Position numbers and translations under genes: made by a program. DNA of 64,000 bases from Peronospora farinosa (Eukaryota > Oomycota > Peronosporomycetes > Peronosporales > Peronosporaceae): positions 578,618-642,617 of the forward strand of contig CANTFK010000943.1 in NCBI GenBank assembly GCA_947646735.1, in the 5' to 3' direction. Shown here in pieces: positions 42,599-63,552 of the stretch. The notes under the pieces are model-generated. The model saw only the letters and a program-made list of their open reading frames with translations. It had not been told where the DNA came from and searched no databases. Every line of letters starts with the position of its first letter. Position 1 is the stretch's first letter.

Positions 42599-42621
42599 TG
42601 TCTATACCAAAAATATAGACA
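42599..42621 (+). repeat. 3'-terminal hairpin of subfamily 1 LINEs
   Basis: TGTCTATA - ccaaaaa - TATAGACA: an 8-base stem ending 8 bases before the LINE 3' end. The same hairpin is in A', B and C; subfamily 2 keeps a weaker GTCTA/TAGAC version. It is a candidate recognition structure for the reverse transcriptase. Confidence 0.7.
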
Positions 42622-42629
42622 ACCTTTCA

Positions 42630-44644: not shown

Positions 44645-44716
44645 AGCCCCCAGGCGGGATCGAACCACCGACCTTTCGCTTACGAAGCGAGTGCTCTACC
44701 ACTGAGCTATAGGGGC
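44645..44716 (-). tRNA. tRNA-Thr(CGT), set 3
   Basis: Intact 72-base tRNA-Thr. Its 5' end abuts a SINE-like element instead of a LINE. Confidence 0.95.
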
Positions 44717-44993: not shown

Positions 44994-45009
44994 ACTGAGT
45001 TATAGGGGC
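44994..45009 (-). repeat. Half-tRNA-Thr between SINE-like element and LINE E
   Basis: GCCCCTATAACTCAGT on the minus strand, one substitution from tRNA-Thr positions 1-16. It serves both as the 3' duplication of the SINE-like element and as the 5' flank of LINE E. Confidence 0.85.
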
Positions 45010-46762: not shown

Positions 46763-46778
46763 ACTGAGCTATCGGGGC
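46763..46778 (-). repeat. Half-tRNA-Thr between LINE E and LINE F
   Basis: GCCCCGATAGCTCAGT on the minus strand, one substitution from tRNA-Thr. It is both the 3' copy for E and the 5' target copy for F. Confidence 0.88.
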
Positions 46779-46876
46779 ACTTCTCAATTTGCCGGCTACC
46801 CCACAAGTCGACTCTTCAGAAGAACCCTCTCTCGCCCGCCGCTCCCGCCGCCCCCCTCTGTCCAAGCTTTTCCGCT

Positions 46877-49675
46877 ATGTTCGCTCCCACGAATCCAACT
46901 TCGGCCACAGCTGCCAACCCAGCCAATGCCGCTCGTCATCATGGTTCCGGGAAAGAATCCAGTGAGAAGCCTGCCTCGTCTGTTCCCCCGTCGTCCTCAA
47001 CCCATGGCTCTGACCAATCAGAAGCGTGGATTCGTGGAACGGGAGGGAACGGTTCGGTGTCGCAAGACTCTGAACCCACCCCAGGTTCAAGTGCAAGTTC
47101 AAGTTCAACGCGCGAAAATTTGGGATCTGGTTTTCAACCCACCCCAAGTTCAAGTTCAAGTCCAAGTGCAAGTGCAAGTGCAAGTGCAAGTCGACCAAAA
47201 TTGGGATCCGGTTCCGAACCCACCCCAACTGCAAGTTCAACTTGCAAACATTTGGGAAGTGATTTCGAAACTGGAGAAAATTCCAGCTTCAACCCATCTT
47301 CGGAGGGACTTCCAGGACTGGATGAAGCGACCACCCCAGGTGGTACTTTAACCGAGAATCCGCCTGACACCACCACTGACGATGGGGATGTCGTCATGGT
47401 GGAAGGAGGTACTGTGGAAGCGCCAGCCGAAGACACACGTCCGACCATGGCCGAGCTGCTCCGGCAGCACGAACACCTCCGACGCGACCGAGCTGTGATC
47501 GAAGCAGCCCGCAAGCGCGTCGAGACCCCGAAGCCTCTTGCTGTGGACATCGAGGCGATTGAGCGCCAGTATGCTGCTGGTCACGACTGGTCGCTCATCG
47601 CTTCAAGAATGGAACAAGCGCGTCCCTATCAGCTACCGAGAGCCAAGTTTGACATGGTGATCGAGACTGGTAGAGCGCTTGCGAAGACTTCCGTCCACAA
47701 GATACTGGCGTCGCTTGCCGGTCCGGATCATGGAAACAGTGAGCTCGAAGAGCTGTACAAGCAATTCGAGATTGGCCAGATTTCCAAGATGCCGGGAGGC
47801 AACTTGCGCGTCAAGGTCAAGTCGAAAGAAGCCTGTGTGCGCTTGGAGCGCACCAAGGTGAATATCCTTGGAGGTGTGTTCACCTTCAAGGAGTTCGACA
47901 TCCTTGGCGACAAGTACTACTTGGATATTTCCAATGTAGACTGCGACATGGATACGGATATGATCCTGCACCGACTGTTCCTTCTTGGATGCAAGCCGGT
48001 ATACGACACCTTCCGTGAAGTGAACATGCCGACTGGAGTCACGTCTGCGACATGGCGGGTGTACTTCCTGTCGAGATCGTGCCCTCCAGCTTTGATCATC
48101 AACAACTGTGTGTGTGATCAGCTGGTCTTCGACAACAAGCTTCATCCTGCTCACGGGAAAAATGCGCCGTTCAGCTCAGAGCGAATGCCATTTGGCTATC
48201 GCTCGCACCACGGAATCGATCTGGGCACGCAAGATAGCGTCTTTCCGCCACCTGAGCCTGCGTCCGAGCCAGATCGCCAGCAGCAGCAACAACACCAGCA
48301 ATACCAACAACCGAAGACGTACGCGCAAGCTGCGAATGCGAATGCGAATGCGAATGCGAAGCCCAAGCCGATGCCCAAACAAACCTCGCTGCAGAGGGCA
48401 GTCGAGGACGCGAAAAAACGGGAAGGTCAGCTCCAGAAAGGAGCTCAGCATGGCAAGCCACCCGCTGCCAATCAGCTCACCAAGCTTCAAGGAAGCAACT
48501 CGGATGCGCTCTCGATCTCGACGTTCAACGGATCCAACGGCAAGATCACTCCCCCAGGGAGTCCGAAAGCTACAGCCAAGCCGAAGCTGTTGTTGACCAC
48601 CGGAGCCAGCGATGGCTTCATCGATGCGTCCAACAAGAAGAAACGCGGCCGCAACGCGATCGACTTCTCCAACATGTTGGTGAAGCAGTCCACGCAGCCC
48701 TTGAATGGCATCGCCACCTCCAACTACTTTCATGCGCTCCAGTCGATGGAGGTCAAGTTCGAATCGAAGAACTTGACTGCTGACAAACAGTATGGAGTCC
48801 GCTATCAGGTTGTCCCTGCGGATGTGAAGCGTCCCGACGAATTGAAGACCTCGACCGAGTCTGCTTTCTTCGTCGAGAAGCACCACACGAAGATCAAGAA
48901 AGCAGCAAAGGCGTCGCCGGTCCTCGAAGTGACCGAGGCGATGATCAACGACGAGAACACGGCGCTTCTCAACACCCTCCCTGACTGTCTTGCGAAAGCG
49001 GACAAGAAGGTCGACGGCGTGTGCAAGCTGCTCGAGAACGCCACGAATCCTGACCACATCACGAAGAAAGCGGTCGAGTGTCCGCTCGCCTTCAACAGCG
49101 CATTGGCGTTGAAGATGGCTGGAAGCGGACACGAGATCGCAGAACTGGCGCAACTTCACGCGATCAACCGCGTGTTCTGTGCGACGCAGCCCAATGAAGA
49201 CACCACGTTCAGCACGAAGTGGAAGAAGCTGATGGGATCGGCAGTTCCGTCGAAGCGTAGCGACATTTTCAAGACGTGTGCGAAGTGGTGGACGTCGTCC
49301 GACTCGATCAAGGAGCTGTCTCGCTCGTCCAAGGCTTTGGGCATGTTCGAGCTCATGCTCATGTCGATCGCGCCGACGATCTTCAACAACGACCACTGGA
49401 TCCAGTACCTCACGGGTCAGCCCGTCGAGTGGATCCCAGCACACAACACGCGACTTCTCCACGTGAACACCCTCCTTCGTCTCTTGCGGTCCGAGCTCGG
49501 TGCGCACTGTATGCAGCAGTGGAGTGAAGTGCAGTGGCAAGGTCACCTTCTGGACGACCTCGAGTCGCTTCAGAAGCTTGACGGGTTCTACAAAGAAGAC
49601 GCTTCGGTGTTGCAGCTTCAAGTCGTTGAAGGTGGAGTTGCGATGGTAGCGGGCGGATTGGCCACTCGTTGCTAA
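46877..49675 (+). CDS. LINE F ORF1, gag-like protein, 932 aa
   Basis: Starts MFAPTNPTS. Residues ~55-130 are Ser-rich and contain an in-frame hexanucleotide repeat (Ser-Ala dipeptides). The conserved core begins at TRPTMAELLRQHEHLRRDRA, with ETPKPLAVDIEAIERQYAAGHDW, LERTKVNILGGVFTFKEFDIL and WRVYFLSRSCPPAL. A Gln-rich and Asn-Ala-repeat linker follows, then KQTSLQRAVEDAKKREGQL. The second conserved block (NAIDFSNMLVKQ...WIQYLTGQPVEWIPAHNTRLL) ends VAGGLATRC. Part of the core may be an RRM-like fold; I see no CCHC knuckle. Expected role: RNP formation with LINE RNA. By eye it is roughly three-quarters identical to subfamily 1 ORF1 in the conserved parts. Confidence 0.88.
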   Translation: MFAPTNPTSATAANPANAARHHGSGKESSEKPASSVPPSSSTHGSDQSEAWIRGTGGNGSVSQDSEPTPGSSASSSSTRENLGSGFQPTPSSSSSPSASASASASRPKLGSGSEPTPTASSTCKHLGSDFETGENSSFNPSSEGLPGLDEATTPGGTLTENPPDTTTDDGDVVMVEGGTVEAPAEDTRPTMAELLRQHEHLRRDRAVIEAARKRVETPKPLAVDIEAIERQYAAGHDWSLIASRMEQARPYQLPRAKFDMVIETGRALAKTSVHKILASLAGPDHGNSELEELYKQFEIGQISKMPGGNLRVKVKSKEACVRLERTKVNILGGVFTFKEFDILGDKYYLDISNVDCDMDTDMILHRLFLLGCKPVYDTFREVNMPTGVTSATWRVYFLSRSCPPALIINNCVCDQLVFDNKLHPAHGKNAPFSSERMPFGYRSHHGIDLGTQDSVFPPPEPASEPDRQQQQQHQQYQQPKTYAQAANANANANAKPKPMPKQTSLQRAVEDAKKREGQLQKGAQHGKPPAANQLTKLQGSNSDALSISTFNGSNGKITPPGSPKATAKPKLLLTTGASDGFIDASNKKKRGRNAIDFSNMLVKQSTQPLNGIATSNYFHALQSMEVKFESKNLTADKQYGVRYQVVPADVKRPDELKTSTESAFFVEKHHTKIKKAAKASPVLEVTEAMINDENTALLNTLPDCLAKADKKVDGVCKLLENATNPDHITKKAVECPLAFNSALALKMAGSGHEIAELAQLHAINRVFCATQPNEDTTFSTKWKKLMGSAVPSKRSDIFKTCAKWWTSSDSIKELSRSSKALGMFELMLMSIAPTIFNNDHWIQYLTGQPVEWIPAHNTRLLHVNTLLRLLRSELGAHCMQQWSEVQWQGHLLDDLESLQKLDGFYKEDASVLQLQVVEGGVAMVAGGLATRC

Positions 49676-49724
49676 ACCTTCCTCGACGTCACAACCGACG
49701 TGGAGCAACATCAGTGTTCTGACT

Positions 49725-52700
49725 GTGAACACTAATGGCATCAAGAAGAATGGCCACCTATTTATCGAGAGCATGCTCTCCAAGTACTCAATGGCGTGCG
49801 TCCAAGAAACCAAGTTCGGCGACAGCACCCATCTTTCCAATTTCAAGTTCCACCTCGACTCGAGCTTCAAGCACAAGGTCTTCGTGGACGACCCCAACTC
49901 ACAGCTGCATCGACCCACGCGAGGACGGAGCAATGGAGTGTTGACTGTGCTCCGCTCTGACTTCCCTGGCTTCGACTCGGCTGTTGAATTTCCAAGTCTG
50001 TCGGTTCCCGGACGCTACCTCGTCGTGAAAGTAATGGTTGAGAGTGCTCCCATCTACATTCACAACGTGTATGCGCCTGTGGACCGCCAAGAAAAGCAAC
50101 AATTCTTCTCGAGCTTGGCGACCGAGGAGTTCGAAGATCAAGCGACGCATTTTGTGTTGGGCGATCTCAACACTCCCCTGGACCCGAGACTTGATTCTTC
50201 CAACCCCGACTTGCGCTACGATCCCAGCCGGTCCAGTTGCCTCGAATGGTTGGCGAAGCTGGGTGTCGTCGATGCATGGCGGATCCACTTCGACACCAAG
50301 CGTGTGTTCACTGGTCCTCTTCCTCGGAAGAATCGGCTGGACTACATCTTGCTGTCAGAGTCTTTCTACGACCGCTTCTACGACACCTCCAAGTACTTCC
50401 TGCCGATGCATGCTGGAGACCACCTTGCTCACAGTGTGAGTTTCAGGTCTGGCTCGCAGCTGCATGGACGAGGGTACTGGAAGTTCCCCCGCTATCTGCT
50501 GGAATACCCAGTGGTGGTGTCTGCGATCGAGAAAGAAGCCGAGCTGGTCCGAGACAAGCTACGCACCACGTCCAACCCAGGCAAGATCTGGGAGGAATGG
50601 AAGGCGAGCATCAAGACCCAACTCCAAGACGTGCAGAAGAAGCTCCGGATGCAAGACTCTCAAGCTGTCGAAGAAGCTCGCGTGCAGTTGGATCAAGCTG
50701 CGGCAAGGTATCGCACAGCAGGAAGCGATTCGAATCGAGACCACTTCGACGAAGCCATGAGGAACTATAAGGAGACGGTCACGCGGACGAGCCAATACAA
50801 CCAAGACACTGCATTCGACTTCCAAGCCGCCAACTCCGAGAAATCGACCAAGCACTTCTTCCGTCCGCTGGACACGAGCTTGAGACGAGTCTCGATCGAA
50901 GAGGTGATGACACCGGGTGGAAGTGTCTCGACGAACCCTCACGAGATCTCTCTCCGCTTCCTGGAGCACTGGGGGTCCGAGATGGGAGACCCCAACAGTC
51001 CGACAGGGAGAGCTCCTCCACCCGACGATGGCATGCAGCGCAAGCTTCTCGACTCGATTGTCTGCTTCGTCACGGAGACTGACCGTGCGATCTTGGACGC
51101 ACCGGTCACTTCTTCGGACCTTGCGAGCGCGATCCGACACATGAAAGCGTCGTCAGCACCCGGCATGGACGGATTGACCGCTGGTTTCTACCAGGTGGCT
51201 CCGGACGTGTTCGGAGAGTGCTTGAGCATCGTGTTCAACGAACGTCTCAAGCGTGGCGTGCTGCTCCCGTCTCAGCGCAAGTCTGCAGTCGTGCTTCTGC
51301 ACAAGAAGGGTTCGAGAGCAGAGCCTGGCAACTACCGACCCATCGCACTGGTGCAAGTCGATGTGAAGGTGCTGTCCAAGGCTCTGACGTATCGACTCCA
51401 GCAAGTGATCGCCGACTTGATCCATCCCGACCAGAAGGGCTTCGTCAAGGGTCGCTCAATTCACCACCATGTGCGGTTCCTCGCGGACCTCCAAGACTTG
51501 ACAACGAGTCGCGATGAAGAAGCGTACGCGATGTTCTTGGACTTCCAGAAGGCGTTCGATCGAGTGAACTGGGACTACATGTTCCGGCTGCTCGAGCGAA
51601 TGAGGTTCGGTTCAGAGTTTGCTCAGTGGATCAAGCTGCTGTACACCGACCCTCAAGCGCATCTTCTCATCAACCAGAACATCCAGCCTGCGCTGTTTCC
51701 GACACGAGGAGTGAAGCAAGGCGATCCGTTGTCTGCGCTGCTCTTCGTCTTGACCATCGAGCCGCTCGGCAACATGCTGCGTGCGCACGAAGAGTACGGA
51801 GTGTGTCTGAATGCAGACCACACGACGACGAGCACGTTCTTCGCGGACGACTCAACTCTGCTTGCGAGCTCGATACCGAACTTGCAGGCGCAGCTTGACA
51901 CCGTGGATGAGTACTGCAAAGGCTCTGGCGCGAAGCTCAATCTGTCCAAGTCGACGCTGCTAGCACTAAATCGGAACCAGACCTGCCCTTCGCTCCCCGG
52001 AGTGCAAGTGCTGGGTCGTGCGGAGACGGTGAAGTACCTTGGCATCCCGTTTGGGCAGTCGTCGGTGGATGACGACCTCGTGGAGTTCCTCGAGCAGCGC
52101 TTCTACGACGGCTTCAAGATGTGGTACCGGCGCGCAAGGACGCTTCGTGGGCGACTTCTGGTCGCTCAAACGATGGTGCTCTCCCGCTTGTGGCACTACA
52201 CACAACATGTGTCAATCCCAGCAACAGTCGTGAAGCGATGGCAGTCGATGCTGAATCGGTTCGTGCTGAGTCGAAAGCACGACCGAGACGCGTCGTACAT
52301 CCAGCTGATCCCAAGCGAGTTCCTGTATCAGCGACGGAGTGAAGGTGGTTTGGGAATCCCAAGCCTGGAAGCACATCTCAAGCGCCAGCGTCTTCAGCTG
52401 CTTCTGCAGTTCATACGGGCTGCGAGAGTGACGGAAGCGCGGAACTGGACGACAGCGAGCTGTGAGTTGCTCCAACTGGTTCTTCCTCGCACCGGTGGCT
52501 ACAACGCACTCGACTTCCTCGTGGTCTCTCCACTCCGACATGGCGACATGATCAAGTGGAGACTGACTTCAACCTGGTGGAGAGCGACGTGGACGTGGTG
52601 GTACAAGATCCGGTGGGAAGTCACGTGGCAAGACCTTCCTTTTGAGGAGCGCGCTTGGTACGGTCTCCGACAGCCGATCTGGTTCCATTCGGATGCAGAG

Positions 52701-53804
52701 CTTCATTTCGAGCAGACTCCGCGGACTCACACCTGCGTGGCGCATCGGCGGTGCATTGGGATGGTGGTCGAGCCACAGCGGAGTTTCCGGCTGCACGTGT
52801 CACGAGTCTTTGGTGTGCGGTCGCTCGTTGACTTCATGCGTGAAAGCTGTGCTTGGCCGTCGCAGCAAGATTTCGTCCAGCGCCACCTTGACTTCACGCT
52901 TGCATCTGTCTCCCCTGGACAACAGGCAAAGTGGCTGCGAGTGTTGTACAAGGAAGCGACTCAGATCGTCGAGCGACTTGGCGCGACGCAGCTTGTTCTG
53001 CAGGCTTCGAGCAGTGCACGGCGACTTCTTCCCCATCTGGGTTGCAATAGCGACGCGAAGGTGTGCTTGATCCCAGCGATCCCGAGATCTGCGCTGCTGC
53101 GTGTGGTGTGGACGCCAAAACCACCGACGAAGCCACATCCGATGACTGTGCACTCGCAGCGAGTTGGCGACGAGCAGATCAAAGCGTACGTCAAGTTCAG
53201 CAAGCACCTGCGCAAGATCCTGCTCCCTGTGTTCGAAGATCTGCAGTTCCGCCTCGCGTTTCGACTCCTACCGGTTCGATCGCGGTTCTGGTTCCTGCAG
53301 CAGTCGAACCCACGCATCATATACTGCATCCGAGACAGGTGCGACGCAGTCGAGACAGAGCAGCACTTGTTCTTCGAATGTTCACTCGCGACAAGACTGT
53401 GGGAACACTTTGGGAACATCATGGCGCCGTTCGTCCGATCTCAACTGACATGGGTCATGATAGCGACAGCAAGGAAACCAGTCGTGCGAGACGAATGGAA
53501 GGAGTGTGAAGACATCATCGGAGATGTATGGCACACGCTCCGCGCGGTGACACTCCACTTCATCTGGTCCGACCGCAATCGGTGTCTGTTCGACGGAAGA
53601 CAGCCCACACCGACGACATCAGCAACGATGGTCATCTTCACCACAGCCAGCGCGCACTTTCGGCACAACCTGAGGAGGCGCTACGATGACGATGAGAGCG
53701 CATCACTGGAGAAGGCGCTTATCAAGATGAGGAAGTATCCGCCTTTTGGAGATTTTGCAACGGCGCACCCCGCCATGTTCCCAGTCCGTCACCTCCAACA
53801 GTAG
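49725..53804 (+). CDS. LINE F ORF2, APE endonuclease and reverse transcriptase, 1359 aa
   Basis: Numbered from V of VNTNG (GTG at 49725). APE endonuclease ~1-240: N in VNTNG, QETK near 27, NVYAP 114-118, GDLN 146-149, RLDYI 204-208, GDH 231-233. RT ~515-780: HKKGSRAEPGNYRPIAL, DQKGFVKGRS, FLDFQKAFDRVNWDYMF, RGVKQGDPLSALLF 661-674, catalytic FADD 706-709. C-terminal finger CX4CX7HX4C at 1201-1219 (zf-RVT type). The layout and motifs are those of Tx1/L1-type LINEs. The frame is +1 to ORF1 and is open upstream to about 49646, but no ATG precedes the endonuclease start (WSNISVLTVNTNG), so initiation must be by frameshift, re-initiation or a non-AUG codon. The enzyme is presumed to nick the tRNA A box and prime reverse transcription. 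Confidence 0.92.
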   Translation: MNTNGIKKNGHLFIESMLSKYSMACVQETKFGDSTHLSNFKFHLDSSFKHKVFVDDPNSQLHRPTRGRSNGVLTVLRSDFPGFDSAVEFPSLSVPGRYLVVKVMVESAPIYIHNVYAPVDRQEKQQFFSSLATEEFEDQATHFVLGDLNTPLDPRLDSSNPDLRYDPSRSSCLEWLAKLGVVDAWRIHFDTKRVFTGPLPRKNRLDYILLSESFYDRFYDTSKYFLPMHAGDHLAHSVSFRSGSQLHGRGYWKFPRYLLEYPVVVSAIEKEAELVRDKLRTTSNPGKIWEEWKASIKTQLQDVQKKLRMQDSQAVEEARVQLDQAAARYRTAGSDSNRDHFDEAMRNYKETVTRTSQYNQDTAFDFQAANSEKSTKHFFRPLDTSLRRVSIEEVMTPGGSVSTNPHEISLRFLEHWGSEMGDPNSPTGRAPPPDDGMQRKLLDSIVCFVTETDRAILDAPVTSSDLASAIRHMKASSAPGMDGLTAGFYQVAPDVFGECLSIVFNERLKRGVLLPSQRKSAVVLLHKKGSRAEPGNYRPIALVQVDVKVLSKALTYRLQQVIADLIHPDQKGFVKGRSIHHHVRFLADLQDLTTSRDEEAYAMFLDFQKAFDRVNWDYMFRLLERMRFGSEFAQWIKLLYTDPQAHLLINQNIQPALFPTRGVKQGDPLSALLFVLTIEPLGNMLRAHEEYGVCLNADHTTTSTFFADDSTLLASSIPNLQAQLDTVDEYCKGSGAKLNLSKSTLLALNRNQTCPSLPGVQVLGRAETVKYLGIPFGQSSVDDDLVEFLEQRFYDGFKMWYRRARTLRGRLLVAQTMVLSRLWHYTQHVSIPATVVKRWQSMLNRFVLSRKHDRDASYIQLIPSEFLYQRRSEGGLGIPSLEAHLKRQRLQLLLQFIRAARVTEARNWTTASCELLQLVLPRTGGYNALDFLVVSPLRHGDMIKWRLTSTWWRATWTWWYKIRWEVTWQDLPFEERAWYGLRQPIWFHSDAELHFEQTPRTHTCVAHRRCIGMVVEPQRSFRLHVSRVFGVRSLVDFMRESCAWPSQQDFVQRHLDFTLASVSPGQQAKWLRVLYKEATQIVERLGATQLVLQASSSARRLLPHLGCNSDAKVCLIPAIPRSALLRVVWTPKPPTKPHPMTVHSQRVGDEQIKAYVKFSKHLRKILLPVFEDLQFRLAFRLLPVRSRFWFLQQSNPRIIYCIRDRCDAVETEQHLFFECSLATRLWEHFGNIMAPFVRSQLTWVMIATARKPVVRDEWKECEDIIGDVWHTLRAVTLHFIWSDRNRCLFDGRQPTPTTSATMVIFTTASAHFRHNLRRRYDDDESASLEKALIKMRKYPPFGDFATAHPAMFPVRHLQQ

Positions 53805-54010
53805 CCACTGCTCCTGCGTCTATTCACACACATCGGAATCATCCACACTCGCACATCACGCAAGAAACAACTTGCACGCTATTCCCAAGAAACATGAAAC
53901 ATAGCAACTGTACAGTATATTTATTAGAAAAACAGCAGTAGTTTCTATACATAGCTAGGTAGATTGAGTAGTCACTTCGTCTAAATTCTAGTAATATAGA
54001 CAACCTTTCA

Positions 54011-54026
54011 ACTGAGCTATAGGGGC
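54011..54026 (-). repeat. Half-tRNA-Thr (LINE F 3' target-site copy)
   Basis: GCCCCTATAGCTCAGT on the minus strand, exact tRNA-Thr positions 1-16. Confidence 0.95.
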
Positions 54027-54462
54027 AGACGTTCTCTTGCATCAACGAAATCATTTATACCACATACAATCATAATACAAAAGCAAGACCAGCAGCTAAA
54101 ACATGCCTCAAAACCCACTGTTGTCCGATTGCACGGACCCGATTTATCTTCTGCCAGCTCTAGGAATCTATACTTATCGATACAAAGCTTCGAAAGTCGA
54201 TGCATATAGCTGTACCACCATCATCATGTACCGACCAATTACTTGACTGGGTTTTCGATCATGCAGTGAGATCTCCATCCCACACCCTTTCGATTTGGCA
54301 GATAGAAGCAAAAGCATCGTGTTGTGGTCGACGTGCGTCGGGATTCGAAGATCGTGTGAAACAATGTGCAGTAGGCTGTGTGTGGTCTGGCGGGCGGGAA
54401 GTAGGCGTGCTGGTGCTTTGCGTGGGATGTTATTGATGTATGTTTTGATACTATTTGGTGTT
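54027..54462. other. Thr-Trp head-to-head spacer, long form
   Basis: Nearly identical to 42646-43081; no gene is seen. Confidence 0.8.
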
Positions 54463-54534
54463 GGGGGAATAGCTCAGTGGTAGAGCGCTGGATTCCAGAC
54501 CCAGCGGTCGGGGGTTCGATCCCCTCTTCCCTCA
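54463..54534 (+). tRNA. tRNA-Trp(CCA), set 4
   Basis: Identical to the other tRNA-Trp copies. Confidence 0.95.
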
Positions 54535-54630
54535 TCCTTTGTTCTTTGAGTACTTCTTTGTGCGCTTTTGCCTGCAGAGAACAGCTCGCAAACCGCGGCA
54601 GGGTGACGGACACAGTCAACACGAGAAAAC

Positions 54631-54679
54631 AAAAGTGCGATACTTCTCGATTTATGCGTGTCATCCTTGCGCAGGGGCC

Positions 54680-54710
<31 letters not shown>

Positions 54711-54735
54711 TACGGATGACCACCGAAGTGGTTCC
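54631..54735 (-). ncRNA. U6: U6 spliceosomal snRNA, set 4 (terminator variant)
   Basis: Identical to set 3, including the T to C change before the terminal T4. TATA is at 54758-54763. Confidence 0.93.
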
Positions 54736-54948
54736 TGTCAACAAGACGCGCCGCGCTCCTATAAGTGGTCGGCTTAGGCATCACATCCAGAACCACTACT
54801 GCAAACAACAGGACGAGATGGAGAGAAGTCAGTGTCTTCTTTTAGCAAAGGACTTGTCTACAACGCATTGCTGTCCCACAGCACAGCACATCGGAGAGAG
54901 CGCGTGCATTGAGCAGCCAGAAGGGATATACGAGGAAGATAAGAAAAG

Positions 54949-55029
54949 CGACAGCTGTGAGATTCGAACTCACGCGGGTTGCCCCATTAACTTAGCAGGC
55001 TAACGCCTTAACCACTCGGCCAAGCTGTC
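54949..55029 (-). tRNA. tRNA-Ser(GCT), set 4
   Basis: Identical to the other tRNA-Ser copies. Confidence 0.95.
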
Positions 55030-56227: not shown

Positions 56228-56299
56228 AGCCCCCAGGCGGGATCGAACCACCGACCTTTCGCTTACGAAGCGAGTGCTCTACCACTGAGCTATAGGGGC
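56228..56299 (-). tRNA. tRNA-Thr(CGT), set 4
   Basis: Intact 72-base tRNA-Thr whose 5' end directly abuts LINE G at 56300. Confidence 0.95.
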
Positions 56300-56396
56300 A
56301 CTTCTCAATTTGCCGGCTACCCCACAAGTCGACTCTTCAGAAGAACCCTCTCTCGCCCGCCGCTCCCGCCGCCCCCTCTGTCCAAGCTTTTCCGCT

Positions 56397-59201
56397 ATGT
56401 TCGCTCCCACGAATCCAACTTCGGCCACAGCTGCCAACCCAGCCAATGCCGCTCGTCATCATGGTTCCGGGAAAGAATCCAGTGAGAAGCCTGCCTCGTC
56501 TGTTCCCCCGTCGTCCTCAACCCATGGCTCTGACCAATCAGAAGCGTGGATTCGTGGAACGGGAGGGAACGGTTCGGTGTCGCAAGACTCTGAACCCACC
56601 CCAGGTTCAAGTGCAAGTTCAAGTTCAACGCGCGAAAATTTGGGATCTGGTTTTCAACCCACCCCAAGTTCAAGTTCAAGTCCAAGTGCAAGTGCAAGTG
56701 CAAGTGCAAGTGCAAGTCGACCAAAATTGGGATCCGGTTCCGAACCCACCCCAACTGCAAGTTCACCTTGCAAACATTTGGGAAGTGATTTCGAGACTGG
56801 AGAAAATTCCAGCTTCAACCCATCTTCGGAGGGACTTCCAGGACTGGATGAAGCGTCCACCCCAGGTGGTACTTTAACCGGGAATCCGCCTGACACCACC
56901 ACTGACGATGGGGATGTCGTCATGGTGGAAGGAGGTACTGTGGAAGCGCCAGCCGAAGACACACGTCCGACCATGGCCGAGCTGCTCTGGCAGCACGAAC
57001 ACCTCCGACGCGACCGAGCTGTGATCGAAGCAGCCCGCAAGCGCGTCGAGACCCCGAAGCCTCTTGCTGTGGACATCGAGGCGATTGAGCGCCAGTATGC
57101 TGCTGGTCACGACTGGTCGCTCATCGCTTCAAGAATGGAACAAGCGCGTCCCTATCAGCTACCGAGAGCCAAGTTTGACATGGTGATCGAGACTGGTAGA
57201 GCGCTTGCGAAGACTTCCGTCCACAAGATACTGGCGTCGCTTGCCGGTCCGGATCATGGAAACAGTGAGCTCGAAGAGCTGTACAAGCAATTCGAGATTG
57301 GCCAGATTTCCAAGATGCCGGGAGGCAACTTGCGCGTCAAGGTCAAGTCGAAAGAAGCCTGTGTGCGCTTGGAGCGCACCAAGGTGAATATCCTTGGCGG
57401 TGTGTTCACCTTCAAGGAGTTCGACATCCTTGGCGACAAGTACTACTTGGATATTTCCAATGTAGACTGCGACATGGATACGGATATGATCCTGCACCGA
57501 CTGTTCCTTCTTGGATGCAAGCCGGTATACGACACCTTCCGTGAAGTGAACATGCCGACTGGAGTCACGTCTGCGACATGGCGGGTGTACTTCCTGTCGA
57601 GATCGTGCCCTCCAGCTTTGATCATCAACAACTGTGTGTGTGATCAGCTGGTCTTCGACAACAAGCTTCATCCTGCTCACGGGAAAAATGCGCCGTTCAG
57701 CTCAGAGCGAATGCCATTTGGCTATCGCTCGCACCACGGAATCGATCTGGGCACGCAAGATAGCGTCTTTCCGCCACCTGAGCCTGCGTCCGAGCCAGAT
57801 CGCCAGCAGCAGCAACAACACCAGCAATACCAACAACCGAAGACGTACGCGCAAGCTGCGAATGCGAATGCGAATGCGAATGCGAAGCCCAAGCCGATGC
57901 CCAAACAAACCTCGCTGCAGAGGGCAGTCGAGGACGCGAAAAAACGGGAAGGTCAGCTCCAGAAAGGAGCTCAGCATGGCAAGCCACCCGCTGCCAATCA
58001 GCTCACCAAGCTTCAAGGAAGCAACTCGGATGCGCTCTCGATCTCGACGTTCAACGGATCCAACGGCAAGATCACTCCCCCAGGGAGTCCGAAAGCTACA
58101 GCCAAGCCGAAGCTGTTGTTGACCACCGGAGCCAGCGATGGCTTCATCGATGCGTCCAACAAGAAGAAACGCGGCCGCAACGCGATCGACTTCTCCAACA
58201 TGTTGGTGAAGCAGTCCACGCAGCCCTTGAATGGCATCGCCACCTCCAACTACTTTCATGCGCTCCAGTCGATGGAGGTCAAGTTCGAATCGAAGAACTT
58301 GACTGCTGACAAACAGTATGGAGTCCGCTATCAGGTTGTCCCTGCGGATGTGAAGCGTCCCGACGAATTGAAGACCTCGACCGAGTCTGCTTTCTTCGTC
58401 GAGAAGCACCACACGAAGATCAAGAAAGCAGCAAAGGCGTCGCCGGTCCTCGAAGTGACCGAGGCGATGATCAACGACGAGAACACGGCGCTTCTCAACA
58501 CCCTCCCTGACTGTCTTGCGAAAGCGGACAAGAAGGTCGACGGCGTGTGCAAGCTGCTCGAGAACGCCACGAATCCTGACCACATCACGAAGAAAGCGGT
58601 CGAGTGTCCGCTCGCCTTCAACAGCGCATTGGCGTTGAAGATGGCTGGAAGCGGACACGAGATCGCAGAACTGGCGCAACTTCACGCGATCAACCGCGTG
58701 TTCTGTGCGACGCAGCCCAATGAAGACACCACGTTCAGCACGAAGTGGAAGAAGCTGATGGGATCGGCAGTTCCGTCGAAGCGTAGCGACATTTTCAAGA
58801 CGTGTGCGAAGTGGTGGACGTCGTCCGACTCGATCAAGGAGCTGTCTCGCTCGTCCAAGGCTTTGGGCATGTTCGAGCTCATGCTCATGTCGATCGCGCC
58901 GACGATCTTCAACAACGACCACTGGATCCAGTACCTCACGGGTCAGCCCGTCGAGTGGATCCCAGCACACAACACGCGACTTCTCCACGTGAACACCCTC
59001 CTTCGTCTCTTGCGGTCCGAGCTCGGTGCGCACTGTATGCAGCAGTGGAGTGAAGTGCAGTGGCAAGGTCACCTTCTGGACGACCTCGAGTCGCTTCAGA
59101 AGCTTGACGGGTTCTACAAAGAAGACGCTTCGGTGTTGCAGCTTCAAGTCGTTGAAGGTGGAGTTGCGATGGTAGCGGGCGGATTGGCCACTCGTTGCTA
59201 A
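56397..59201 (+). CDS. LINE G ORF1, gag-like protein, ~934 aa
   Basis: Same domains as F ORF1. The Ser-Ala repeat is two residues longer. Substitutions include Trp for Arg in ELLWQHEHL and Gly for Glu in LTGNPPD. Because the 5' UTR C run is one base shorter, an in-frame upstream ATG at 56310 exists, which would add 29 residues. The MFAPTN start shared with F is preferred. Confidence 0.88.
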   Translation: MFAPTNPTSATAANPANAARHHGSGKESSEKPASSVPPSSSTHGSDQSEAWIRGTGGNGSVSQDSEPTPGSSASSSSTRENLGSGFQPTPSSSSSPSASASASASASRPKLGSGSEPTPTASSPCKHLGSDFETGENSSFNPSSEGLPGLDEASTPGGTLTGNPPDTTTDDGDVVMVEGGTVEAPAEDTRPTMAELLWQHEHLRRDRAVIEAARKRVETPKPLAVDIEAIERQYAAGHDWSLIASRMEQARPYQLPRAKFDMVIETGRALAKTSVHKILASLAGPDHGNSELEELYKQFEIGQISKMPGGNLRVKVKSKEACVRLERTKVNILGGVFTFKEFDILGDKYYLDISNVDCDMDTDMILHRLFLLGCKPVYDTFREVNMPTGVTSATWRVYFLSRSCPPALIINNCVCDQLVFDNKLHPAHGKNAPFSSERMPFGYRSHHGIDLGTQDSVFPPPEPASEPDRQQQQQHQQYQQPKTYAQAANANANANAKPKPMPKQTSLQRAVEDAKKREGQLQKGAQHGKPPAANQLTKLQGSNSDALSISTFNGSNGKITPPGSPKATAKPKLLLTTGASDGFIDASNKKKRGRNAIDFSNMLVKQSTQPLNGIATSNYFHALQSMEVKFESKNLTADKQYGVRYQVVPADVKRPDELKTSTESAFFVEKHHTKIKKAAKASPVLEVTEAMINDENTALLNTLPDCLAKADKKVDGVCKLLENATNPDHITKKAVECPLAFNSALALKMAGSGHEIAELAQLHAINRVFCATQPNEDTTFSTKWKKLMGSAVPSKRSDIFKTCAKWWTSSDSIKELSRSSKALGMFELMLMSIAPTIFNNDHWIQYLTGQPVEWIPAHNTRLLHVNTLLRLLRSELGAHCMQQWSEVQWQGHLLDDLESLQKLDGFYKEDASVLQLQVVEGGVAMVAGGLATRC

Positions 59202-59250
59202 ACCTTCCTCGACGTCACAACCGACGTGGAGCAACATCAGTGTTCTGACT

Positions 59251-62200
59251 GTGAACACTAATGGCATCAAGAAGAATGGCCACCTATTTATCGAGAGCAT
59301 GCTCTCCAAGTACTCAATGGCGTGCGTCCAAGAAACCAAGTTCGGCGACAGCACCCATCTTTCCAATTTCAAGTTCCACCTCGACTCGAGCTTCAAGCAC
59401 AAGGTCTTCGTGGACGACCCCAACTCACAGCTGCATCGACCCACGCGAGGACGAAGCAATGGAGTGTTGACTGTGCTCCGCTCTGACTTCCCTGGCTTCG
59501 ACTCGGCTGTTGAATTTCCAAGTCTGTCGGTTCCCGGACGCTACCTCGTCGTGAAAGTAATGGTTGAGAGTGCTCCCATCTACATTCACAACGTGTATGC
59601 GCCTGTGGACCGCCAAGAAAAGCAACAATTCTTCTCGAGCTTGGCGACCGAGGAGTTCGAAGATCAAGCGACGCATTTTGTGTTGGGCGATCTCAACACT
59701 CCCCTGGACCCGAGACTTGATTCTTCCAACCCCGACTTGCGCTACGATCCCAGCCGGTCCAGTTGCCTCGAATGGTTGGCGAAGCTGGGTGTCGTCGATG
59801 CATGGCGGATCCACTTCGACACCAAGCGTGTGTTCACTGGTCCTCTTCCTCGGAAGAATCGGCTGGACTACATCTTGCTGTCAGAGTCTTTCTACGACCG
59901 CTTCTACGACACCTCCAAGTACTTCCTGCCGATGCATGCTGGAGACCACCTTGCTCACAGTGTGAGTTTCAGGTCTGGCTCGCAGCTGCATGGACGAGGG
60001 TACTGGAAGTTCCCCCGCTATCTGCTGGAATACCCAGTGGTGGTGTCTGCGATCGAGAAAGAAGCCGAGCTGGTCCGAGACAAGCTACGCACCACGTCCA
60101 ACCCAGGCAAGATCTGGGAGGAATGGAAGGCGAGCATCAAGACCCAACTCCAAGACGTGCAGAAGAAGCTCCGGATGCAAGACTCTCAAGCTGTCGAAGA
60201 AGCTCGCGTGCAGTTGGATCAAGCTGCGGCAAGGTATCGCACAGCAGGAAGCGATTCGAATCGAGACCACTTCGACGAAGCCATGAGGAACTATAAGGAG
60301 ACGGTCACGCGGACGAGCCAATACAACCAAGACACTGCATTCGACTTCCAAGCCGCCAACTCCGAGAAATCGACCAAGCACTTCTTCCGTCCGCTGGACA
60401 CGAGCTTGAGACGAGTCTCGATCGAAGAGGTGATGACACCGGGTGGAAGTGTCTCGACGAACCCTCACGAGATCTCTCTCCGCTTCCTGGAGCACTGGGG
60501 GTCCGAGATGGGAGACCCCAACAGTCCGACAGGGAGAGCTCCTCCACCCGACGATGGCATGCAGCGCAAGCTTCTCGACTCGATTGTCTGCTTCGTCACG
60601 GAGACTGACCGTGCGATCTTGGACGCACCGGTCACTTCTTCGGACCTTGCGAGCGCGATCCGACACATGAAAGCGTCGTCAGCACCCGGCATGGACGGAT
60701 TGACCGCTGGTTTCTACCAGGTGGCTCCGGACGTGTTCGGAGAGTGCTTGAGCATCGTGTTCAACGAACGTCTCAAGCGTGGCGTGCTGCTCCCGTCTCA
60801 GCGCAAGTCTGCAGTCGTGCTTCTGCACAAGAAGGGTTCGAGAGCAGAGCCTGGCAACTACCGACCCATCGCACTGGTGCAAGTCGATGTGAAGGTGCTG
60901 TCCAAGGCTCTGACGTATCGACTCCAGCAAGTGATCGCCGACTTGATCCATCCCGACCAGAAGGGCTTCGTCAAGGGTCGCTCAATTCACCACCATGTGC
61001 GGTTCCTCGCGGACCTCCAAGACTTGACAACGAGTCGCGATGAAGAAGCGTACGCGATGTTCTTGGACTTCCAGAAGGCGTTCGATCGAGTGAACTGGGA
61101 CTACATGTTCCGGCTGCTCGAGCGAATGAGGTTCGGTTCAGAGTTTGCTCAGTGGATCAAGCTGCTGTACACCGACCCTCAAGCGCATCTTCTCATCAAC
61201 CAGAACATCCAGCCTGCGCTGTTTCCGACACGAGGAGTGAAGCAAGGCGATCCGTTGTCTGCGCTGCTCTTCGTCTTGACCATCGAGCCGCTCGGCAACA
61301 TGCTGCGTGCGCACGAAGAGTACGGAGTGTGTCTGAATGCAGACCACACGACGACGAGCACGTTCTTCGCGGACGACTCAACTCTGCTTGCGAGCTCGAT
61401 ACCGAACTTGCAGGCGCAGCTTGACACCGTGGATGAGTACTGCAAAGGCTCTGGCGCGAAGCTCAATCTGTCCAAGTCGACGCTGCTAGCACTAAATCGG
61501 AACCAGACCTGCCCTTCGCTCCCCGGAGTGCAAGTGCTGGGTCGTGCGGAGACGGTGAAGTACCTTGGCATCCCGTTTGGGCAGTCGTCGGTGGATGACG
61601 ACCTCGTGGAGTTCCTCGAGCAGCGCTTCTACGACGGCTTCAAGATGTGGTACCGGCGCGCAAGGACGCTTCGTGGGCGACTTCTGGTCGCTCAAACGAT
61701 GGTGCTCTCCCGCTTGTGGCACTACACACAACATGTGTCAATCCCAGCAACAGTCGTGAAGCGATGGCAGTCGATGCTGAATCGGTTCGTGCTGAGTCGA
61801 AAGCACGACCGAGACGCGTCGTACATCCAGCTGATCCCAAGCGAGTTCCTGTATCAGCGACGGAGTGAAGGTGGTTTGGGAATCCCAAGCCTGGAAGCAC
61901 ATCTCAAGCGCCAGCGTCTTCAGCTGCTTCTGCAGTTCATACGGGCTGCGAGAGTGACGGAAGCGCGGAACTGGACGACAGCGAGCTGTGAGTTGCTCCA
62001 ACTGGTTCTTCCTCGCACCGGTGGCTACAACGCACTCGACTTCCTCGTGGTCTCTCCACTCCGACATGGCGACATGATCAAGTGGAGACTGACTTCAACC
62101 TGGTGGAGAGCGACGTGGACGTGGTGGTACAAGATCCGGTGGGAAGTCACGTGGCAAGACCTTCCTTTTGAGGAGCGCGCTTGGTACGGTCTCCGACAGC

Positions 62201-63330
62201 CGATCTGGTTCCATTCGGATGCAGAGCTTCATTTCGAGCAGACTCCGCGGACTCACACCTGCGTGGCGCATCGGCGGTGCATTGGGATGGTGGTCGAGCC
62301 ACAGCGGAGTTTCCGGCTGCACGTGTCACGAGTCTTTGGTGTGCGGTCGCTCGTTGACTTCATGCGTGAAAGCTGTGCTTGGCCGTCGCAGCAAGATTTC
62401 GTCCAGCGCCACCTTGACTTCACGCTTGCATCTGTCTCCCCTGGACAACAGGCAAAGTGGCTGCGAGTGTTGTACAAGGAAGCGACTCAGATCGTCGAGC
62501 GACTTGGCGCGACGCAGCTTGTTCTGCAGGCTTCGAGCAGTGCACGGCGACTTCTTCCCCATCTGGGTTGCAATAGCGACGCGAAGGTGTGCTTGATCCC
62601 AGCGATCCCGAGATCTGCGCTGCTGCGTGTGGTGTGGACGCCAAAACCACCGACGAAGCCACATCCGATGACTGTGCACTCGCAGCGAGTTGGCGACGAG
62701 CAGATCAAAGCGTACGTCAAGTTCAGCAAGCACCTGCGCAAGATCCTGCTCCCTGTGTTCGAAGATCTGCAGTTCCGCCTCGCGTTTCGACTCCTACCGG
62801 TTCGATCGCGGTTCTGGTTCCTGCAGCAGTCGAACCCACGCATCATATACTGCATCCGAGACAGGTGCGACGCAGTCGAGACAGAGCAGCACTTGTTCTT
62901 CGAATGTTCACTCGCGACAAGACTGTGGGAACACTTTGGGAACATCATGGCGCCGTTCGTCCGATCTCAACTGACATGGGTCATGATAGCGACAGCAAGG
63001 AAACCAGTCGTGCGAGACGAATGGAAGGAGTGTGAAGACATCATCGGAGATGTATGGCACACGCTCCGCGCGGTGACACTCCACTTCATCTGGTCCGACC
63101 GCAATCGGTGTCTGTTCGACGGAAGACAGCCCACACCGACGACATCAGCAACGATGGTCATCTTCACCACAGCCAGCGCGCACTTTCGGCACAACCTGAG
63201 GAGGCGCTACGATGACGATGAGAGCGCATCACTGGAGAAGGCGCTTATCAAGATGAGGAAGTATCCGCCTTTTGGAGATTTTGCAACGGCGCACCCCGCC
63301 ATGTTCCCAGTCCGTCACCTCCAACAGTAG
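59251..63330 (+). CDS. LINE G ORF2, APE endonuclease and reverse transcriptase, 1359 aa
   Basis: Same protein as F ORF2, with all endonuclease, RT (FADD) and CX4CX7HX4C residues present. As in F, no ATG lies before the first endonuclease motif and the frame is +1 to ORF1. The differences from F that I saw are silent. Confidence 0.92.
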   Translation: MNTNGIKKNGHLFIESMLSKYSMACVQETKFGDSTHLSNFKFHLDSSFKHKVFVDDPNSQLHRPTRGRSNGVLTVLRSDFPGFDSAVEFPSLSVPGRYLVVKVMVESAPIYIHNVYAPVDRQEKQQFFSSLATEEFEDQATHFVLGDLNTPLDPRLDSSNPDLRYDPSRSSCLEWLAKLGVVDAWRIHFDTKRVFTGPLPRKNRLDYILLSESFYDRFYDTSKYFLPMHAGDHLAHSVSFRSGSQLHGRGYWKFPRYLLEYPVVVSAIEKEAELVRDKLRTTSNPGKIWEEWKASIKTQLQDVQKKLRMQDSQAVEEARVQLDQAAARYRTAGSDSNRDHFDEAMRNYKETVTRTSQYNQDTAFDFQAANSEKSTKHFFRPLDTSLRRVSIEEVMTPGGSVSTNPHEISLRFLEHWGSEMGDPNSPTGRAPPPDDGMQRKLLDSIVCFVTETDRAILDAPVTSSDLASAIRHMKASSAPGMDGLTAGFYQVAPDVFGECLSIVFNERLKRGVLLPSQRKSAVVLLHKKGSRAEPGNYRPIALVQVDVKVLSKALTYRLQQVIADLIHPDQKGFVKGRSIHHHVRFLADLQDLTTSRDEEAYAMFLDFQKAFDRVNWDYMFRLLERMRFGSEFAQWIKLLYTDPQAHLLINQNIQPALFPTRGVKQGDPLSALLFVLTIEPLGNMLRAHEEYGVCLNADHTTTSTFFADDSTLLASSIPNLQAQLDTVDEYCKGSGAKLNLSKSTLLALNRNQTCPSLPGVQVLGRAETVKYLGIPFGQSSVDDDLVEFLEQRFYDGFKMWYRRARTLRGRLLVAQTMVLSRLWHYTQHVSIPATVVKRWQSMLNRFVLSRKHDRDASYIQLIPSEFLYQRRSEGGLGIPSLEAHLKRQRLQLLLQFIRAARVTEARNWTTASCELLQLVLPRTGGYNALDFLVVSPLRHGDMIKWRLTSTWWRATWTWWYKIRWEVTWQDLPFEERAWYGLRQPIWFHSDAELHFEQTPRTHTCVAHRRCIGMVVEPQRSFRLHVSRVFGVRSLVDFMRESCAWPSQQDFVQRHLDFTLASVSPGQQAKWLRVLYKEATQIVERLGATQLVLQASSSARRLLPHLGCNSDAKVCLIPAIPRSALLRVVWTPKPPTKPHPMTVHSQRVGDEQIKAYVKFSKHLRKILLPVFEDLQFRLAFRLLPVRSRFWFLQQSNPRIIYCIRDRCDAVETEQHLFFECSLATRLWEHFGNIMAPFVRSQLTWVMIATARKPVVRDEWKECEDIIGDVWHTLRAVTLHFIWSDRNRCLFDGRQPTPTTSATMVIFTTASAHFRHNLRRRYDDDESASLEKALIKMRKYPPFGDFATAHPAMFPVRHLQQ

Positions 63331-63536
63331 CCACTGCTCCTGCGTCTATTCACACACATCGGAATCATCCACACTCGCACATCACGCAAGAAACAACTTG
63401 CACGCTATTCCCAAGAAACATGAAACATAGCAACTGTACAGTATATTTATTAGAAAAACAGCAGTAGTTTCTATACATAGCTAGGTAGATTGAGTAGTCA
63501 CTTCGTCTAAATTCTAGTAATATAGACAACCTTTCA

Positions 63537-63552
63537 ACTGAGCTATAGGGGC
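63537..63552 (-). repeat. Half-tRNA-Thr (LINE G 3' target-site copy)
   Basis: Exact copy of tRNA-Thr positions 1-16 on the minus strand. Confidence 0.95.

Follow-up and report, generated by a model that had tools for sequence, protein, structure and literature searches.

LINEs and a companion SINE docking at tRNA genes in the oomycete Peronospora farinosa

Several LINEs in the 64-kb window (the whole stretch of DNA analysed, 64,000 nucleotides) lie directly beside tRNA genes which are themselves intact. This raises the question whether these elements insert specifically at tRNA genes and how the gene survives the insertion. An earlier note on this DNA had proposed that the LINEs begin next to the first base of a tRNA, end next to a copy of tRNA positions 1-16 and regenerate the tRNA. 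We traced the LINE copies beyond the window across the whole genome (46.85 Mb). The docking of the LINE at tRNA genes is confirmed as real and genome-wide, and the interpretation in the earlier note is supported with the corrections given below.

Elements and tRNA genes in the window

The features are listed by position; the labels B to G of the LINEs were matched to the text of the earlier note.

10648..10663, plus strand: Thr-like head GCCCATATAGTTCAGT, older, following a LINE copy on its 3′ side
17058..17073, minus strand: Trp head, positions 1-16, 3′ of a LINE fragment on the plus strand whose last base is 17057
17509..24522, minus strand: LINE B, lineage L1; 5′ end at tRNA-Thr 24523, 3′ head 17493-17508
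24523..24594, plus strand: tRNA-Thr(CGT), intact, LINE B upstream
26798..33763, minus strand: LINE C, lineage L1; 3′ head 26782-26797, one T before tRNA-Thr 33765
33765..33837, plus strand: tRNA-Thr(CGT), intact, LINE C upstream
35558..35632, minus strand: tRNA-Trp(CCA), intact, LINE D upstream
35633..42629, plus strand: LINE D, lineage L1; 5′ end at tRNA-Trp 35632, 3′ head Thr 42630-42645
44644..44716, minus strand: tRNA-Thr(CGT), intact despite three stacked insertions (SINE, LINE E, LINE F)
44717..44993, plus strand: SINE, 277 bp, with tRNA-like head, B box at 44774 and 3′-terminal hairpin
44994..45009, minus strand: Thr head (positions 1-16) with one altered base, adjoining the SINE 3′ end
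45011..46762, plus strand: LINE E, 5′-truncated L2 copy stacked between SINE and LINE F
46763..46778, minus strand: Thr-like head GCCCCGATAGCTCAGT separating LINE E from LINE F
46779..54010, plus strand: LINE F, full length, lineage L2
46877..49675, plus strand: LINE F ORF1, 932 aa
49725..53804, plus strand: LINE F ORF2, 1359 aa, listed mechanically from GTG
54011..54026, minus strand: Thr head, positions 1-16, at the LINE F 3′ end
56228..56299, minus strand: tRNA-Thr(CGT), intact, LINE G upstream
56300..63536, plus strand: LINE G, full length, lineage L2; 5′ end adjoins tRNA-Thr G1 at 56299
63537..63552, minus strand: Thr head, positions 1-16, at the LINE G 3′ end

LINEs B, D and G begin at tRNA position +1 as had been claimed, with G1 of the tRNA at 24523, 35632 and 56299, respectively. 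LINE C also adjoins its tRNA-Thr, with one extra T before G1 at 33765. LINE F had been said to start at a whole tRNA as well; it adjoins only the 16-nt head at 46763-46778, which is one base off Thr and is the 3′ head of the truncated LINE E. LINE E in turn carries one extra T (45010) at its 5′ joint, and the stack at 44717-54026 reads, in order, SINE, truncated LINE and full LINE. LINEs B, C, F and G were all found to end next to a copy of tRNA positions 1-16, as noted before (17493-17508, 26782-26797, 54011-54026 and 63537-63552). LINE D lies within a near-perfect inverted repeat and its two ends mismatch (Trp vs Thr); it therefore looks like a recombination product and not like a clean insertion.

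ORF1 of LINE F has no Pfam match. A weak tandem-RRM-like region at residues ~251-430 appears in a predicted structure of low confidence, so that the fold may be called RRM-like at best, and with such a low-confidence fold no targeting domain was identified in ORF1. The domain matches of ORF2 comprise an N-terminal Exo_endo_phos domain (APE; 2e-6) and RVT_1 (1.3e-37) and include no restriction-like endonuclease domain. Among solved LINE proteins human L1 ORF2p is the best match (1.3e-59), the R2 proteins scoring from 3.9e-24. Judged by this best match, assignment of the element to the two-ORF, APE-type LINEs of the L1 group is supported, in agreement with the L1-like part of the classification proposed before. 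Close relatives of ORF1 and ORF2, where named, come from oomycetes, and viral contigs yielded no relatives. Eight other L1-like ORF2 loci of the genome show 26-32% identity. ARAGORN found no tRNA at six of them (C243, C246, C204, C245, C234 and C39; C193 and C26 were left out of this check), and tRNA targeting is therefore not general among the L1-like elements here.

The insertion site across the genome

Two LINE lineages, L1 and L2, which are ~75% identical, have a common insertion site. A tRNA head at +1 adjoins all 16 full LINE 5′ ends found, once with an extra T; 13 of these ends precede a tRNA body and three a stacked head. ARAGORN calls a tRNA for 12 of the 13 bodies, the remaining one being a Met/Tyr chimera, and gave no call for three short stretches because these were cut inside the tRNA. 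At the other side, a copy of tRNA positions 1-16 follows directly after each of the 18 intact LINE 3′ ends found genome-wide, always including TAG[CT]TCAGT. Every intact end found thus sits at a tRNA head and none away from tRNA genes, and with eight tRNA species carrying LINE insertions the proposed site-specific insertion with tRNA regeneration is borne out. A 19th 3′ end, of lineage L1 and decayed (C48:270033), reads GGCTCAGT, adjoins TTTGGCTCAGT and was kept apart from the 18 intact ends. The element searches score the best candidates only and may miss copies, so that all counts refer to copies found.

Across the genome the junction of AGCTCAGT with TGAAAGGTTG is matched exactly 17 times and once with a single mismatch. 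Each of these 18 matches lies at a 3′ end of this LINE, and a chance origin was rejected for zero to one mismatches. Specificity is lost when up to three mismatches are allowed (52 matches vs 25 for the reversed control). The 34 matches with two or three mismatches were left uncounted, since most are noise at that level; the match at C160:233726 (two mismatches), with neither a LINE nor a tRNA nearby, was dropped as chance, and the decayed but real end at C48:270033 also comes from this group. A search for lineage-L1 3′ ends which used no tRNA letters returned eight full ends, all within the 18, and in addition the decayed C48 end and one short internal match. LINE ends were not seen in the stretches read of the old fragments at C13, C233 and C273.

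The LINE 3′ heads in the eight tRNA species match their own tRNA at positions 1-14, and the upstream flanks are unrelated. Five arrays (Cys, Lys, Ala, Phe and Ile) contain both empty and filled units; comparison of the two shows that the 50-base upstream flank is retained and the tRNA head duplicated. We thus find both a constant LINE 3′ junction (18/18 ends) and a target-site duplication, as expected for target-primed insertion.

An element lies directly upstream of 28 of the 216 matches to the TAGCTCA motif (12 LINEs and 16 SINEs). The motif alone is not enough for insertion; at the 53 evenly spaced matches of the Asn array on C74 there is no element at all. In the window, all four tRNA-Thr genes carry an insertion, and the Pol III genes without TAGCTC carry none (Ser 0/4, U6 0/4). 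Likewise the His genes of the Ala/His arrays and the Gln genes on C247 lack TAGCTC where read and are free of insertions. At tRNA-Ala (two LINEs, one SINE) the target reads TAGCTCAAATGG and the 3′ head TAGCTCAGT. The GT of these heads is not in the target and only 14 bp are duplicated, which puts the nick no later than position 14 and makes the element RNA the source of GT. The duplicated bases are therefore tRNA sequence in general, as the note had it, with the exception of this GT, and a first nick after ATAGCTCAGT is not obligatory.

The tRNA at the 5′ side is usually left complete, as expected by the earlier note, and regeneration is unclean at C220:229519, C235:169729 and C240:92301. In the first case 43 nt of antisense tRNA-Met lie between the LINE and tRNA-Tyr, with a TGAA microhomology at the joint. 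Added, variable or changed single bases at 5′ joints occur at C248:612380, C240:92301, C235:169729 and in the first base of the SINE. From position 5-6 onwards the stacked heads at C56:14028 and C240:84489 no longer follow the local tRNA, which a nick near position 14 fails to explain. The first resembles Ile(1-5)+Ala(5-16) and the second Cys(1-5)+Ile-TAT(5-16), these partners having been chosen post hoc so that others may fit.

A SINE of 277 bp, which the earlier note does not mention, inserts at the tRNA site of the LINE. At 16 of 18 places it lies within one base of +1, the tRNA head running into the tRNA body, and 16 of 17 readable 3′ ends carry a tRNA head; the head is absent at a decayed SINE on C257. 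The tRNA genes concerned are Phe, Lys, Ala, Cys, Ile and Thr. The first SINE base varies among copies, and at C198:13.7k the base at position 7 differs between the two sides of the element. SINE positions 3-79 are tRNA-like according to ARAGORN at a relaxed threshold, and the B box is matched. Rfam (E 5) did not find a tRNA in the SINE head, and the A-box pattern matches far downstream only. We regard the element as a SINE by its shortness, its Pol III-type head and its target duplications. Compared with shuffled sequences, the 3′ hairpin reaches z -3.9 in the SINE and z -2.8 in lineage L1; in lineage L2 (z -0.12) it equals the shuffles. The tails of SINE and LINE are alike in layout (hairpin-spacer-AC-TGAGCTA) and only weakly similar in sequence, shuffles being as good in 62/2000 cases for L2 and 740/2000 for L1. 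These counts lend weak support to the SINE tail having been copied in sequence from that of the LINE.

Docking model and alternatives

We propose, with a probability of roughly 0.87, that a site-specific family of L1-group LINEs together with the SINE docks at the A-box TAGCTCA (positions 8-14) in antisense orientation to the tRNA, by target-primed insertion which rebuilds the tRNA. The compared sequences display the site with its fixed geometry and its duplication, its presence in eight tRNA species, its sharing by LINE and SINE, and the stacking. From them we infer in which order the strands are nicked, that the RNA pairs with the DNA and that ORF2p serves both LINE and SINE. The ORF2 endonuclease would nick the tRNA-sense strand inside or just past TAGCTCA, and the freed 3′ end would pair with a 3′-terminal UGAGCUA of the element RNA, immediately beyond the terminal hairpin and a spacer of 8-9 nt, and prime reverse transcription. 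The cut in the second strand would fall between +1 and -1, always 14-16 nt off, and repair would leave a complete tRNA at the 5′ end of the element and a 14-16-nt head at its 3′ end. The stagger would reach from +1 to the first nick, so that exactly this segment of the tRNA would be duplicated on repair; the rebuilt tRNA would be a new target and elements would therefore stack.

In line with what has been proposed for Dictyostelium TRE5-A, bound Pol III machinery (TFIIIC/TFIIIB) could guide the element instead of the DNA sequence. Every intact site found is a tRNA gene, presence of the motif does not predict occupancy (Asn array), and TRE5-A targeting requires the A and B boxes according to PMC5391098. 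We nevertheless consider this unlikely, as Ser, U6, His and Gln are Pol III genes without TAGCTC where read and are uninserted, and as the junctions here are base-exact and intragenic, compared with a spread of 47 +/- 3 bp given for TRE5-A in the same paper. A mixed model with Pol III machinery plus DNA sequence may also apply.

It is less probable still that the LINE RNA simply starts at +1 and that template switching or end joining makes the 5′ joint, the second nick not being fixed. The 5′-truncated LINE E still joins at +1 with one extra base, and the SINEs at C198:11.7k and C56:3.4k, which have a different 5′ stretch, join within a base of the head; the boundary therefore seems to be set by the target and not by the RNA start. 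The antisense tRNA-Met piece at C220:229519, according to which the RNA may start upstream, and the single-base variation at the 5′ joints (C248:612380, C240:92301, C235:169729, SINE) speak for such an RNA-based joint. Finally, it is hardly credible that repeated targeting is absent and that segmental duplication or gene conversion of tRNA arrays multiplied one or a few insertions: repeats, inverted and direct, abound in the window, the mismatched ends of LINE D indicate that recombination occurs and two Ala LINE copies have identical flanks, yet the heads match their own tRNA in eight species with unrelated flanks that differ between arrays, the SINE also sits at Phe, Lys, Ala, Cys, Ile and Thr, five arrays hold empty/filled pairs, and duplication of a single insertion is excluded because eight L2 copies, inserted at genes for Thr, Tyr, Lys, Ala and Cys tRNAs, show only 0-2 differences per 1200 bases.

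The docking model could be extended: the element RNA might carry, past its 3′ end, a copy of the tRNA head that adjoined its parent, as a guide pairing with the A box of any TAGCTCA tRNA gene, docking sites being reusable and tRNA pieces swapped. Hints in this direction are the heads at C56:14028 and C240:84489, the GT at Ala and the Met/Tyr chimera at C220:229519; we hold this extension tentatively, at somewhat less than even odds. If it is true, tRNA genes are reusable docking sites at which occasional swaps of pieces give rise to chimeric tRNA genes.

Essential tRNA genes may be a safe harbour for the LINE, the nick geometry rebuilding the gene instead of breaking it; as a complete tRNA is usually left behind, the gene is available for further landings. 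One APE-type nuclease would serve many tRNA species through a common 7-base promoter motif. With this system it can be tested directly how L1-type endonucleases acquire sequence specificity and what part RNA-primer pairing plays, and TAGCTCA with its 14-16-nt stagger would be a compact natural site for targeted-insertion work. Insertions replace the natural upstream region of the tRNA and can create chimeric tRNAs, so that tRNA supply may be affected.

Comparison with known systems

LINEs that target tRNA genes are as such already known. Searches of open-licence papers returned none with the tRNA-rebuilding geometry and no work on the present element, which does not prove absence. NeSL-type elements use a restriction-like endonuclease, and the LINE described here, with its APE-type endonuclease, differs from the NeSL/R2-type tRNA-specific LINEs. 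Bacterial islands and phages use tRNA genes as attachment sites, rebuild the tRNA and stack. They insert by site-specific recombination at the 3′ part of the tRNA and without reverse transcription, and the likeness is an analogy of logic only.

PMC4640811 lists the NeSL-clade families NeSL-1_TV (tRNA-Pro), LIN15_SM (tRNA-Arg) and LIN25_SM (tRNA-Glu). Like our LINE these are tRNA-gene-specific non-LTR retrotransposons, but as described there each uses one tRNA species, compared with eight here. The same paper describes Utopia of oomycetes, with a restriction-like endonuclease and RNase H and the U2 snRNA gene as target; it resembles the present LINE as a site-specific LINE of oomycetes with intact small-RNA genes beside the insertions. 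According to PMC3706591, zebrafish Dewa is also target-specific at tRNA loci, but its site is the tRNA-Leu spacer instead of the A box of a range of tRNAs. The Dada DNA transposons of Perkinsus have, in the same paper, TAGCTC in the tRNA A box as putative TSD. They share this motif with our LINE but are no retrotransposons (DDE transposase), and unlike our LINE they make intragenic TSDs of 6-7 bp with an own tRNA for each family.

The Dictyostelium elements TRE5-A and TRE3 are, like the LINE described here, two-ORF, APE-type and associated with tRNA genes. In PMC5391098 and PMC5633606 TRE5-A inserts ~47 bp upstream and TRE3 ~100 bp downstream of the tRNA gene, and integration proceeds via Pol III factors. 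These papers also describe a non-autonomous partner with the same integration behaviour, TRE5-A.2, comparable to the SINE beside our LINE, and extra bases at 5′ junctions as seen here. Unlike TRE5-A and TRE3 as presented there, the LINE of this genome inserts within the gene and base-exactly, with 16/16 5′ ends at +1 and the tRNA head duplicated.

LINE copies and their coding capacity

Within the window four units of tRNA-Thr(CGT), tRNA-Ser(GCT), U6 and tRNA-Trp(CCA) are interleaved with copies of a two-ORF LINE. These copies belong to two lineages, L1 (not the mammalian element of that name) and L2, which share about 75% nucleotide identity with each other. Coordinates without prefix refer to the window, and C-numbers denote contigs of the assembly (46.85 Mb, 274 contigs), in which the window corresponds to C248:578618-642617.

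U6 genes and example LINE copies in the window
26091-26195: U6 snRNA gene within a tRNA-Thr/Ser/Trp array unit
35333-35437: U6 snRNA gene within a tRNA-Thr/Ser/Trp array unit
43248-43352: U6 snRNA gene within a tRNA-Thr/Ser/Trp array unit
54629-54733: U6 snRNA gene within a tRNA-Thr/Ser/Trp array unit
35633-42629: LINE, L1 lineage
46779-54010: LINE, L2 lineage
56300-63536: LINE, L2 lineage

LINE F, a full-length L2 copy, encodes an ORF1 of 932 aa and an ORF2 of 1359 aa, the latter with APE-type endonuclease and reverse transcriptase domains. The solved protein nearest to ORF2 is human L1 ORF2p (1.3e-59), and R2 proteins follow from 3.9e-24. Many relatives of ORF1 and ORF2 are metagenome sequences; the named close relatives are all from oomycetes (Globisporangium, Phytophthora, Peronospora, Plasmopara, Pythium, Lagenidium), and the distant ORF2 matches with an organism name are from plants, an alga and a fungus. 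ORF1 is also 99% identical, over 40% of its own length, to an annotated Peronospora farinosa protein, for which a near relative, transfer or contamination may account. Thirteen genomic ORF2 matches start at residue 1 and reach residue 1168 or beyond. Twelve of them are free of stops and the remaining one (C235:162330) carries a single TAG; the L2-like matches in this set, at about 100% identity, number eight.

Junctions with the tRNA genes

A genome-wide search with the LINE 5′ ends yielded nine full L2 and seven full L1 ends with an identical start base. All 16 adjoin a tRNA head (positions 1-16), which leads into a tRNA body in 13 cases and into the next stacked element in three. ARAGORN calls a tRNA in 12 of these 13 bodies, the thirteenth being a chimera. 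Two short matches (C215:28972 and C82:3393), at 81-84%, fall in the interior of the L1-lineage 5′ region; they lack its first 45 bases and stand outside the 16.

The L2 3′ end, used as a query that took in 20 bases past the element end, was found at 18 places genome-wide, and at all of them the antisense of TAG[CT]TCAGT directly follows the LINE (an independent scan for the pattern scored 17 of them as exact and the other with a single mismatch). With the L1-lineage 3′ end as sole query we obtained eight full ends, all within the 18, one short internal match and a decayed copy on C48, the 3′ end of which lies next to TTTGGCTCAGT. Beyond the junction, except in stacks (element inserted on element), come the rest of tRNA positions 1-16 and then the natural upstream flank of the tRNA. 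The LINE sites comprise eight tRNA species: Thr(CGT), Trp(CCA), Lys(TTT), Cys(GCA), Ala(AGC), Ile(AAT), Phe(GAA) and the intron-bearing Tyr(GTA).

Untouched units of tandem tRNA arrays in the same genome served as empty-site reference. In the Cys, Lys, Ala, Phe and Ile arrays the filled 3′ side keeps the 50-base upstream flank of the empty units, followed by the head and the LINE, and on the filled 5′ side the LINE end is followed by the tRNA; no flank loss was seen in this comparison of five arrays. Eight L2 copies, compared over their last 1200 bases under the heading INDEPENDENCE and taken from sites in Thr (2), Tyr, Lys, Ala (2) and Cys (2), show 0-2 pairwise differences. Since the L2 copies are near-identical while the flanks of different arrays are unrelated, the pattern is that of recent, separate insertions. 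Duplication may have occurred inside one array, for example of the two Ala LINE copies.

The companion SINE, stacks and the nick position

The same tRNA site is used by a SINE with 18 genomic matches, 16 of them at most one base from a tRNA head leading into a tRNA body (Phe 7, Lys 4, Cys 2, Ala 1, Ile 1, Thr 1; for most, the first 20-45 bases of the body were examined).

The window SINE and the stacks
44717-44993: SINE, 277 bp, tRNA-like head and B box
44717-54026: stack at tRNA-Thr 44644-44716; in order SINE, truncated LINE E and full LINE F, each followed by a head, then the flank
C56:14028: LINE on LINE
C240:84489: SINE on LINE
C229:4.6-5.1k: SINE on SINE

The tRNA-like head of the SINE gave no Rfam match for a tRNA. 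The first base of the SINE varies between copies or is absent. A tRNA head follows 16 of the 17 readable SINE 3′ ends (TAACTCAGT at the window copy), the copy at C240:84.2k being counted and that at C198:1-208 left out because it runs off its contig; the exception, a decayed copy on C257, lacks both the tRNA at its 5′ side and the head at its 3′ end. The C229:4.6k SINE joins its stacked head imprecisely. The SINE at C229:4590-4820 is a variant that has the common 3′ tail and a Lys head but differs in its 5′ half, and a second SINE is stacked on top. As target regeneration predicts, the tRNA at the stack end is still called as a tRNA in all four stacks.

In the 3′ 45 nt a hairpin and, after it, a spacer of 8-9 nt are predicted for the L1 lineage (z -2.8) and for the SINE (z -3.9, with a further outer helix predicted); the L2 hairpin is weaker (z -0.12). 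Direct sequence similarity between LINE and SINE tails is weak. Judging from the common site, one reverse transcriptase likely serves both.

Positions 15-16 are GT in most targeted tRNAs, so that the duplication could be 14-16 bp there. The tRNA-Ala gene reads TAGCTCAAATGG and the 3′ head at two LINEs and one SINE in Ala sites reads TAGCTCAGT; this mismatch decides that the AC at the end of the element strand belongs to the element itself and that the nick in tRNA-Ala falls at or before position 14. At positions 6-8, the heads of unstacked LINEs agree with the tRNA of their own site in eight of eight species, which places the nick of ordinary insertions at or after about position 8. Two stacks have a head that diverges from the local tRNA starting at position 5-6. 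The stacked head on C56 resembles Ile plus Ala and that on C240 Cys plus Ile-TAT; the head at 46763-46778 may be a Thr and Phe mix or carry a point change. A read-through RNA bearing the tRNA head of the former host would explain such mixed heads in stacks.

Changes at several junctions indicate that restoration of the tRNA is usual, not invariable. At C220:229476-229519 tRNA-Met positions 1-43, with the same sequence as in two C226 Met genes, lie between a LINE 5′ end and tRNA-Tyr and are joined at TGAA, giving a chimera in which the tRNA-Tyr part supplies the intron and the 3′ half; the 3′ end of this LINE runs off the contig. The SINE site C235:169729 has the acceptor GGGCGATG in place of GGGGATG, position 7 is changed from G to A at C240:92301, and one additional T is present at C248:612380. 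The two sides of the C198:13.7k SINE disagree at position 7, with A in the 3′ head against G in the tRNA, and the tRNA-Ala beside the LINE at C235:159385 has a T to A change in the anticodon loop (CATAGCATG in place of CTTAGCATG).

Target choice and known relatives

The A-box motif TAGCTCA-(1-3)-GGNAGAGC has 216 matches in the genome (reversed control: 1), and an element lies directly upstream of 28 of them (12 LINE, 16 SINE). A match is not always a gene: among three unoccupied loci checked, the one on C93 has no ARAGORN call and the other two are tRNA-Asn. No insertion was found at the motif-less Pol III genes of the window (Ser 0/4, U6 0/4) or at the motif-less His genes beside occupied Ala genes. 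A dense array at C247:171488-193171 has many tRNA genes about 180 bp apart; the two examined are both motif-less tRNA-Gln TTG, and no LINE or SINE match is listed there. Large tandem tRNA arrays of this kind recall those described for Entamoeba (PMC2652664). The motif is not sufficient, since the array C74:1-40424 with 53 matches at an even 776-777-bp spacing (first unit tRNA-Asn) showed no LINE or SINE at any match in the genome-wide 5′-end and SINE searches. These observations are best accounted for if the A-box sequence is recognised directly, perhaps with the aid of chromatin or of Pol III factors.

Among the known systems, the cited passages present Dewa, in the tRNA-Leu spacer (PMC3706591), and NeSL-1_TV, LIN15_SM and LIN25_SM (PMC4640811) as tRNA-specific LINEs, and TRE5/TRE3 as LINEs near tRNA genes (PMC5391098, PMC5633606). 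The Dada DNA transposons of Perkinsus are given a putative target site duplication TAGCTC, a motif also of this LINE (PMC3706591). In these passages no LINE with an APE-type endonuclease is described as inserting into the A box of many different tRNAs and rebuilding the gene, and no SINE partner as sharing the LINE's insertion base.
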